A stretch of DNA of 64,000 nucleotides. It comes from Limnochordaceae bacterium (lineage in GTDB: Bacteria > Bacillota > Limnochordia > Limnochordales > Geochordaceae). The notes under the pieces are model-generated. The model was given only the letters and a program-made list of their open reading frames with translations, did no database searches and was not told the origin of the DNA. A program made the translations under genes and the position numbers. The DNA lies in assembly GCA_014896295.1 (NCBI GenBank), contig JADBKR010000007.1:310001-374000 (forward strand), written 5' to 3'. Positions 27,454-55,417 of the stretch are shown piece after piece; positions within the stretch are counted from its first letter, which is position 1; each line of letters begins with the position of its first letter.

Positions 27454-27482
27454 ATTATACCGAGACGGCGCGCCTGCCACAC
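27454..27482 (-). promoter_or_regulatory. Promoter candidate for pspA
   Basis: A perfect TATAAT lies on the minus strand (27459-27454) with a weak GTGTGG (27482-27477) 17 bases upstream. The 223-base gap to sufB holds this, the sufB promoter and the operator-like palindrome. Confidence 0.45.
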
Positions 27483-27533
27483 GCCGGCATGCCCGCCCGG
27501 CTACCCGCGCGGGGCAGGGGCGGGGTATACTGA

Positions 27534-27546
27534 TTCACCAGGTTAA
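27534..27546 (+). promoter_or_regulatory. Operator-like palindrome in the sufB promoter
   Basis: TTCACCAGGTTAA matches TTAACCAGGTTAA of the marR promoter (55191-55203, minus strand) at 12 of 13 positions. It lies 2 bases downstream of a TATACT (27526-27531) and 3 bases upstream of the TTGACA at 27550. Binding by the MarR protein is inferred. Confidence 0.55.
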
Positions 27547-27549
27547 GAT

Positions 27550-27578
27550 TTGACAGCACTAAGTACCCGCACTAGACT
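27550..27578 (+). promoter_or_regulatory. sufB promoter
   Basis: A perfect TTGACA (27550-27555) with 17-base spacing to TAGACT (27573-27578). The transcript would start about 15-20 bases before the TTG start of sufB. A second possible -10 (TATACT, 27526-27531) lies just upstream of the palindrome. Confidence 0.6.
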
Positions 27579-27602
27579 GTTCGTGGCGAAGGGGGAGCCC
27601 CA

Positions 27603-29003
27603 TTGGCCAAGCAGGAGCTGGCTTTGGGTACCGAGTACCGCTACGGGTTCTCGGACCCTGAGCAATACGTCTACAAGTCCCGCAAGGGCCTCGATCGGCA
27701 GATCGTCGAAGAGATCTCGTCCATCAAGAGCGAGCCCGGCTGGATGCGCCGCTTCCGGCTCAAGGCGCTGGAGATCTTCGAGCGCAAGGCGATGCCGACC
27801 TGGGGAGCGGACCTCTCCCAGCTCCGCTTCGACGACATCTACTACTACGTGCGGCCCACCGAGCGGAAGGGCCAGAGCTGGGACGAAGTGCCCGAGACCA
27901 TCCGCAACACCTTCGACCGGCTGGGCGTGCCGGAGGCGGAGCGCAAGTTCCTGGCGGGGCTGACGGCGCAGTACGAGTCCGAGGCCGTCTACCACAGCAT
28001 CAACAAGGAGCTCGCCTCCAAGGGCGTCATCTTCGTCGACATGGACACGGGCTTGAGGGAGTACCCGGATCTGGTCCGGCAGTACTTCGGCACCGTGGTC
28101 CCGCCGGCGGACAACAAGTTCGCCGCGCTCAACAGCGCCGTCTGGAGCGGCGGGAGCTTCGTCTACGTGCCGGAAGGGGTCAAGGTGGAGATCCCGCTGC
28201 AGGCCTACTTCCGCATCAACGCCCGCAACATGGGGCAGTTCGAGCGCACGCTCATCATCGCCGAGCCGGGCAGCTCCGTCCACTACGTCGAAGGATGCAC
28301 GGCGCCCCAGTACACCACCGAGGCGCTGCACTCCGCGGTGGTGGAGATCATCGTCAAGCCCGGCGCTCAGGTGCGGTACACCACGATCCAGAACTGGTCC
28401 CACAACGTGTACAACCTGGTGACCAAGCGGGCCGCCGTCTACGAAGACGGGACCATGATCTGGACGGACGGCAATCTGGGTAGCCACGTGACCATGAAGT
28501 ACCCGTCCTTCTACCTGATGGGCAAGGGCGCCCGGGGCGAGGTGCTCTCCATCGCCTTCGCGGGGCCGGGCCAGCACCAGGACGCCGGCGCCAAGGCCGT
28601 CCACCTGGCGCCGTATACCACGTCGACCATCACCAACAAGTCGATCTGCAAGGATGGCGGCAAGACCACCTACCGGGGCCTGGTCCACGTGGCCGAGGAC
28701 GCCTACCGGAGCAAGAGCAAGGTCAACTGCGACGCCCTCATCTTCGACGACCGGTCCAGGACCGACACCATTCCCTACATCGAGGTGCTCAACTCCGACG
28801 TCCAGATGGAGCACGAGGCGACGGTGAGCAAGGTGAGCGAGGAGCAGCTCTTCTACCTGATGAGCCGCGGGCTTTCGGAGGAGCAGGCGACGGCCATGAT
28901 CGTCATGGGCTTCATCGAGCCCTTCTCCCGCTCCCTGCCCATGGAGTACGCCGTCGAGCTCAACCGCCTGATCGAGCTCGAGATGGAAGGCTCGGTGGGC
29001 TGA
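27603..29003 (+). CDS. sufB: Fe-S cluster assembly scaffold protein SufB
   Basis: 466 residues. [26 protein letters not shown]-like [34 protein letters not shown] and LYFLMSRG-type [14 protein letters not shown] are the SufB signatures, with the beta-helical core in between. It is the scaffold of the Suf Fe-S machinery, normally with SufC and SufD, which are not in the window. TTG start six bases after GGGGGAG. It is followed directly by a Rieske protein. Confidence 0.93.
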
Positions 29004-29008
29004 GCGCC

Positions 29009-29326
29009 GTGGCGTTTCGCCCGGTACTGCCCATCGACGAGCTGCCGCCCGGCGCTGCCCGCCGCGTCGACGCCGGCGGGCAGCGCCTCGCCCTGTGGCA
29101 CACCGCTCAGGGCGTCTTCGCCACCGACGACACCTGCACCCACGAGCGGGCCAGCTTGAGCGAGGGCGACTTCGACCCCGACGAGGGGACCGTCGCGTGC
29201 CCCAAGCACGGGGCCCGCTTCCACGTCGCGTCGGGCAGGGCGCTCACCCTGCCCGCCTATAAGCCGCTCCGCACCTACCCTGTCAAGATCGACGGCGGCC
29301 ATGTCATGGTCGACCTCGGCGACTGA
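29009..29326 (+). CDS. Rieske [2Fe-2S] ferredoxin-like protein
   Basis: 105 residues, GTG start five bases after the sufB stop. CTHERASLSEG and CPKHGARFHVASG give the CxH...CxxH ligand set of a Rieske cluster. It resembles ferredoxin subunits of dioxygenases that commonly sit in suf clusters. A role in electron transfer to Suf or as a Suf client is inferred from location. Confidence 0.88.
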   Translation: MAFRPVLPIDELPPGAARRVDAGGQRLALWHTAQGVFATDDTCTHERASLSEGDFDPDEGTVACPKHGARFHVASGRALTLPAYKPLRTYPVKIDGGHVMVDLGD

Positions 29327-54580: not shown

Positions 54581-55144
54581 TCAGCGGCACTGAAGGGGCG
54601 TCCCGGTCAGATCCCGGTAGGCTTCGATGAGCGGGCAATCGGGAGTGCTCTCGTCGCCGCACCGCAGGCAAAGGGCCTCTACCACCGCGGTATCGTTGAG
54701 CCCTGCGGCCAAGAACGCCCGCAAGGCATGCTCGAGCTGCTGCTGGTCTTCCGGGCTCATACGGCTCAGGATCATCTCGAAGATCCGGCTGCGCCGCTCG
54801 CGGATCCGCTCCACCGCCCGCCGGCCGGAGTCGGTCAGCGCGATCTCCACGGACCGCCGATCGTCGGCCCGCTCCTTGCGGGTGACCAGGCCCTTGCGAA
54901 CCAACCGGTCGACCAGCTTGGTCACGGCGGGCGGCGTCATGTGCAGCCCGTCGGCCAGCTCCGCCGCCGAGCACGAGCCATGACGCTGCAGGTACTTGAG
55001 ACACTCGAGCTGGGAAACGGTCAGATACGCACCTGCGTCGGCCAGGGTGCGCGTCGTGATCACGTCGAACATCACTTCGGCGAACAAATCGGCGAGCATC
55101 TCGATGGAGCCCCGCCGATTGGCCACCACCGTCACGGGCCACAT
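54581..55144 (-). CDS. MarR-family regulator with C-terminal cysteine motif
   Basis: 187 residues. Winged helix-turn-helix: LTVSQLECLKYLQRHGSCS, MTPPAVTKLVDRLVRKGLV, RKERADDRRSVEIALTDSG. After the dimerisation helices the C-terminus carries Cys159, Cys162, Cys170 and Cys186 (CLRC-x7-CPL...LQC), which could bind an Fe-S cluster or zinc. ATG 55144 is chosen. The promoter has a palindromic operator over the start site, so self-control is likely. A 12/13 copy of that site lies at sufB, so control of Fe-S assembly is proposed (inference). Confidence 0.9.
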   Translation of the reverse strand: MWPVTVVANRRGSIEMLADLFAEVMFDVITTRTLADAGAYLTVSQLECLKYLQRHGSCSAAELADGLHMTPPAVTKLVDRLVRKGLVTRKERADDRRSVEIALTDSGRRAVERIRERRSRIFEMILSRMSPEDQQQLEHALRAFLAAGLNDTAVVEALCLRCGDESTPDCPLIEAYRDLTGTPLQCR

Positions 55145-55190: not shown

Positions 55191-55203
55191 TTAACCTGGT
55201 TAA
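55191..55203 (-). promoter_or_regulatory. Palindromic operator at the marR promoter
   Basis: TTAACC-T-GGTTAA is a perfect 13-bp palindrome. It starts directly after the -10 of the marR promoter, so a bound protein would block transcription. A 12/13 match lies at 27534-27546 upstream of sufB. Confidence 0.7.
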
Positions 55204-55232
55204 AGGCTATCACCGGGCCCCCCGGGTGTCAA
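55204..55232 (-). promoter_or_regulatory. marR promoter
   Basis: On the minus strand, a perfect TTGACA (55232-55227) is 17 bases from TAGCCT (55209-55204). The predicted start lies inside the palindrome at 55191-55203. Confidence 0.6.
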
Positions 55233-55234
55233 GC

Positions 55235-55267
55235 AAAGCCCGTAACCGTGGGCTTTTCGTGTATAAT
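55235..55267 (+). promoter_or_regulatory. Promoter with inverted repeat for the 37-residue protein gene
   Basis: A perfect TATAAT (55262-55267) has no good -35. Just upstream, AAAGCCC (55235-55241) and GGGCTTT (55250-55256) form an inverted repeat with an 8-base gap, filling the -35/spacer region. It could be a second operator in the divergent region. Confidence 0.45.
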
Positions 55268-55303
55268 GGGGGCGACCATCATGCGTGCCGGGAGGCAGCA
55301 CCC

Positions 55304-55417
55304 ATGTCCAAGCAGGCATCCGCTCCGGGCGGCGTCAGCATGCGCGCCTTTTTCGCAGTCGCCGGCTTCCTTACTCTCCTGGGGTTGCTGTTGCGCCTGC
55401 TCACCGGCGGCCACTGA
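55304..55417 (+). CDS. Small single-pass membrane protein (37 residues)
   Basis: MSKQASAPGGVSMR is followed by a hydrophobic helix AFFAVAGFLTLLGLLLRLL and TGGH. GGGAGG lies seven bases before ATG 55304, and a TATAAT lies 37 bases upstream. It is divergent from marR across overlapping control elements, so it may be part of the MarR regulon. No known family recognised. Confidence 0.6.
   Translation: MSKQASAPGGVSMRAFFAVAGFLTLLGLLLRLLTGGH

Follow-up and report, generated by a model that had tools for sequence, protein, structure and literature searches.

How is transcription of sufB controlled, given a short palindrome in front of the gene that can be read as the site of a repressor or of an activator, depending on which promoter is used? 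The question arises in a stretch of 64,000 nucleotides from a Limnochordaceae bacterium (contig JADBKR010000007.1), referred to here as the window. In the original prediction, TATACT was taken as a possible first -10, with the palindrome behind it in the same geometry as at marR, and TTGACA-N17-TAGACT as a second promoter with the palindrome just upstream of its -35, so that two arrangements with opposite regulation resulted. TATACT, the palindrome and TTGACA-N17-TAGACT were all located exactly where they had been placed, within positions 27526-27578, and are listed here with the genes that follow them.

27526..27531, plus strand: TATACT, the first -10 of the original prediction
27534..27546, no strand assigned: operator TTCACCAGGTTAA at sufB, one mismatch to TTAACnnnGTTAA, retained in four genomes of the family
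27550..27555, plus strand: -35 of the sufB promoter, TTGACA, 3 nt past the operator, conserved in both genera
27573..27578, plus strand: -10 of the sufB promoter, TAGACT, conserved in both genera
27603..29003, plus strand: sufB (TIGR01980, 726.5 bits against a cut-off of 346.4)
29009..29326, plus strand: Rieske ferredoxin gene (PF00355, 68.7 bits), 5 bases past sufB

TTGACA and TAGACT are separated by a spacer of 17 nt, and TAGACT stands 24 bases ahead of the sufB start codon (TTG). Within 3.5 kb this pair is the only sigma-70 match with at least 9 of 12 positions, where 0.4 would be expected. The stretch was rightly predicted to hold the sufB promoter. For TATACT, the best available -35 agrees in two of six positions, no TGn precedes it as in an extended -10, and it is missing from the sister genus; the sufB promoter is therefore most likely TTGACA-N17-TAGACT, and TATACT is probably not a promoter element. 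With the first arrangement unsupported, only one of the two predicted arrangements is left. Judged from the position of the promoter, transcription would start near 27585, which would centre the operator at about -45. The Rieske ferredoxin gene is probably part of the sufB operon, given its close spacing. This sufB-Rieske unit (27603-29326) is separate from sufC-D-S-U, which lies on another contig.

Divergent from sufB is pspA (PF04012; 26669-27459, minus strand), with a TATAAT on its own strand at 27454-27459. Being about 75 bases away from this TATAAT, the suf operator is unlikely to act on pspA. Between the genera, the spacer of 17 bp in the sufB promoter (27556-27572, CACTAAGTACCnGnAC) is nearly identical, unlike the marR spacers, and a search for it across the order returned no other occurrence; a further regulatory element may lie within it.

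The sufB palindrome is a 13-base near-palindrome with five of six pairs matched and one mismatched. TTNACCNGGTNAA has just two exact copies in the whole genome of 2.9 Mb, at sufB and at marR, and both fall inside the window. The likeness between the two loci, which had been noticed before, is real, and we read it as a shared operator. The elements at marR are the following.

54581..55144, minus strand: marR, encoding a Cys-rich MarR-type regulator (here Cys-MarR), the proposed binder of the operator (PF01047, 61.1 bits), Cys retained in the sister genus
55191..55203, no strand assigned: operator at marR, TTAACCAGGTTAA on the marR strand, immediately past the -10, identical in four genomes
55204..55209, minus strand: -10 of the marR promoter, TAGCCT
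55227..55232, minus strand: -35 of the marR promoter, TTGACA, 17 nt from the -10

A gene for a 37-residue, probably membrane, peptide diverges from marR (55261-55417, plus strand; TATAAT at about 55261), and a small gene resembling it is readable at the corresponding position in the sister genus. The peptide gene, too, might be influenced by the marR operator.

Four genomes of the family were compared, namely the host genome (G000), a second genome of the same species (G061) and two of the sister genus (G001 and G002). Between G000, G001 and G002, the 50 bases upstream of the sufB site show hardly any conservation (9 of 50), but 9 of the 13 bases of the site itself are conserved, as are 27 of the 32 bases downstream of it, where TTGACA and TAGACT lie. 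Of all the sites, the one at sufB is the least palindromic, and it varies among the genomes; the gap of 3 nt between it and TTGACA is constant in all four, so that the second of the two predicted geometries, with the site just upstream of the -35, proved right in each of the four. The sites at marR, sufB, sufC and mrp are retained at the same positions in all four genomes and thus in two genera, and the one at the ATPase gene in three (G000, G061 and G001). In G002, a fragmented assembly of 4.5 Mb, a reversed control pattern is found 12 times against 9 for the motif, so the count there carries no weight, which rests instead on the positions. In ten other genomes of the order, neither sufB nor the second SufB/D locus was found to have a site; the one match there, with two mismatches, does not lie upstream of the gene.

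The extent of the regulon was assessed by scanning the 2.9 Mb genome for TTAACnnnGTTAA with at most one mismatch. Only seven places match, five of which belong to marR, sufB, sufCDSU, mrp/ApbC and a heavy-metal P1B ATPase, the remaining two lying in apparent coding sequence. At the sufC-D-S-U operon, the site TTAAGCAGGTTAA lies 12 nt upstream of an extended -10 (TGnTATACTGC) and spans the -35 region, where no -35 is recognisable; at mrp/ApbC, GTAACGCGGTTAA follows immediately after the -10; and the site of the heavy-metal P-type ATPase gene (TIGR01525, 463.8 bits) is in its 5' leader. The SPC motif of this ATPase is reminiscent of P1B-4 pumps, to which the iron exporter PfeT belongs. About four sites with at most one mismatch would be expected in a random genome of the same size and composition, which is what could speak for mere coincidence, the two short palindromes being alike by chance and the one at sufB having no function. 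Against this, positions are conserved at four operons in four genomes and the sites are concentrated on Fe-S genes, the chance that three of six sites would hit the three Fe-S promoters being about 2e-10; the conservation across genera in particular strongly disfavours coincidence, which we regard as extremely unlikely. Site, promoter, membership and conservation of the regulon are well supported by the sequences. A regulator of Fe-S assembly should have operators at the suf and Fe-S carrier operons that relatives share, and here they are present at sufB, sufC and mrp in four genomes. The five matching sites, at Fe-S assembly genes, a metal pump gene and the marR gene, point to a circuit that governs Fe-S cluster formation and has not been described before.

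Which protein binds these sites? The marR product lies above the cut-offs of the MarR family models (PF01047, 61.1 against 24.6 bits; PF12802, 55 against 27 bits), and it shows the family trait of a palindromic operator at its own promoter, TTAACCAGGTTAA past the marR -10 in four genomes. It ends in CX2CX7CX15C, and its sister-genus counterpart, 73-74% identical, has retained all four Cys. We infer with strong confidence that this encoded Cys-MarR is the binder. The genome carries further MarR paralogues, and another transcription factor could bind the sites with the MarR gene merely one of its targets; however, none of the seven genome sites is at another MarR gene and the motif precedes the Cys-MarR gene in distant families too, which makes this reading very unlikely. 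A Rrf2 protein was rejected as binder, the sole Rrf2 matches over the cut-off being fragments not tied to the site. The best Rrf2-family match of the genome (G000:C7:144981-145368) is split over two reading frames, as in a broken gene or after a sequencing error.

Distant relatives of the marR product were obtained by searching 398 genomes of the phylum. In an alignment of 29 proteins, the first Cys is present in 28, the second and third in all 29 and a His (CGxxH) in 25, a conservation that is partly a product of searching with a Cys-bearing profile; the Cys-MarR of the host family is without this usual His and has a fourth Cys. We define the Cys-MarR subfamily here by a C-terminal CX2C...C and TTAACnnnGTTAA at its own promoter, both of which are found for the marR product. 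The DNA surrounding 20 distant Cys-MarR genes, 273 kb in all, holds 11 exact copies of TTAACnnnGTTAA, each of them immediately ahead of the Cys-MarR gene, which shows that the motif travels with the protein. Genes for rubrerythrin, desulfoferrodoxin, rubredoxin-like proteins or ferritin lie directly downstream of 12 of the 20. A link to suf in these genomes was rejected, as only one of the 20 has a SufB relative when E is limited to 1e-20; so the distant members would control genes other than suf, and the recruitment of suf and mrp looks specific to the host family.

Taken together, we consider it probable that the palindrome is the operator of Cys-MarR at five operons, most likely for repression, and that the C-terminal Cys of the protein are probable ligands of an Fe-S cluster or a metal. 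A Cys-MarR dimer would bind TTAACnnnGTTAA at its own gene, at sufB-Rieske, sufCDSU, mrp/ApbC and the heavy-metal P1B ATPase gene. At marR and mrp, where the site starts immediately past the -10, the bound dimer would cover the -10/+1 region and should block initiation; at sufCDSU it would sit over the -35 region ahead of the extended -10. At sufB it would abut a perfect -35, and as the DNA protected by a MarR dimer extends beyond the 13-mer, it could block this -35 as well. Our confidence in repression as the mode of control is moderate, and for sufB itself we judge repression likely and activation a minority prospect. In the alternative, dual control, Cys-MarR would repress marR and mrp and activate sufB from about -45, perhaps also sufC, for instance as the apo form and in the manner of IscR at E. 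coli suf. The centring of the sufB site near -45 at a constant 3 nt from the -35 in two genera is consistent with it, as is the sufC promoter without a recognisable -35. However, sufB has a perfect TTGACA as its -35, and promoters of this kind seldom depend on an activator, and the sufC site lies over the -35 region, a position more usual for repression. A site upstream of the -35 need not mark an activator either, because a MarR dimer bound there also reaches the -35, and the sufC, marR and mrp sites lie where repressors bind. We regard dual control as unlikely.

The signal is a separate question. By analogy with SufR, ArnR and the Rrf2 regulators, the C-terminal Cys suggest an Fe-S cluster or a metal. 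If this were lost when iron is short, when oxidants cause damage or when the demand for Fe-S is high, the protein would let go of the DNA and Fe-S assembly would rise, as with SufR. Our confidence in Fe-S or metal sensing is weak to moderate. With the same operator and regulator, the Cys could instead bind structural zinc or sense thiol oxidation, without an Fe-S cluster: CX2C...C and CX2CGX2HX4C are common zinc-binding patterns, and in distant genomes the adjacent genes serve in oxidative defence. Against this stands the regulon, which is Fe-S assembly itself (sufB, sufCDSU, mrp) and as such the usual target of Fe-S sensing regulators, so that we lean away from zinc or thiol sensing while holding it to be quite possible. 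The likelihoods attached to the different readings do not sum to one, because the sign of control and the ligand are separate, overlapping questions.

A regulator of the MarR type that has an operator of its own, present at the two suf operons as well as at the mrp carrier gene, would be an independent solution, since the published regulators of Fe-S assembly in the literature searched are of the Rrf2 (IscR, RisR) or SufR types. It would also offer a testable function for a Cys-bearing MarR subfamily whose genes, in many of the phylum's genomes, adjoin those for oxygen defence, with a regulon seemingly rewired from oxygen defence to cluster assembly. In its widest form, for which we put the prospects only slightly short of even, a MarR subfamily widely distributed in the phylum and equipped with a Cys3His or Cys4 sensor for Fe-S or iron would normally govern genes for rubrerythrin, superoxide reductase and ferritin via TTAACnnnGTTAA, and would have captured sufB, sufCDSU, mrp and a metal-exporting ATPase in the host family only, as a class of Fe-S biogenesis regulator independent of the Rrf2 and SufR types.

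A MarR regulator of suf was not found described in the open-licence literature searched, and the proposed circuit was compared with systems that share parts of it. IscR and RisR control Fe-S assembly operons by Fe-S sensing (PMC9973013) and have the Rrf2 fold, whereas the marR product is a MarR protein, with no Pfam match to an Rrf2 domain at E 0.001. ArnR of Corynebacterium is a MarR/ArsR-like winged-helix protein that binds a [4Fe-4S] cluster and has three C-terminal Cys (PMC12343034); it differs in the wide spacing of these (Cys179/193/223) and in its targets, nitrate reductase and hmp, without a role for suf. PerR of Bacillus subtilis couples iron efflux by PfeT to peroxide defence (PMC9993123), but with a Fur-family protein and operator in place of a MarR-type protein and TTAACnnnGTTAA. 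SufR of cyanobacteria, known as Rv1460 in Mycobacterium tuberculosis, is a winged-helix regulator with C-terminal Cys and acts as a repressor of suf as well as of its own gene (PMC6034842); the winged helix and the C-terminal cysteines recur in Cys-MarR, for which suf and its own gene are the proposed targets. The marR product, however, reaches 21.8 bits with the SufR model (TIGR02702) against a cut-off of 178.8, the Cys spacing of SufR (203/216/244) differs from CX2CX7CX15C, and the SufR gene adjoins suf whereas the Cys-MarR gene is far from it and the protein would work with the operator TTAACnnnGTTAA. SufR is a functional analogue of Cys-MarR from a different family.
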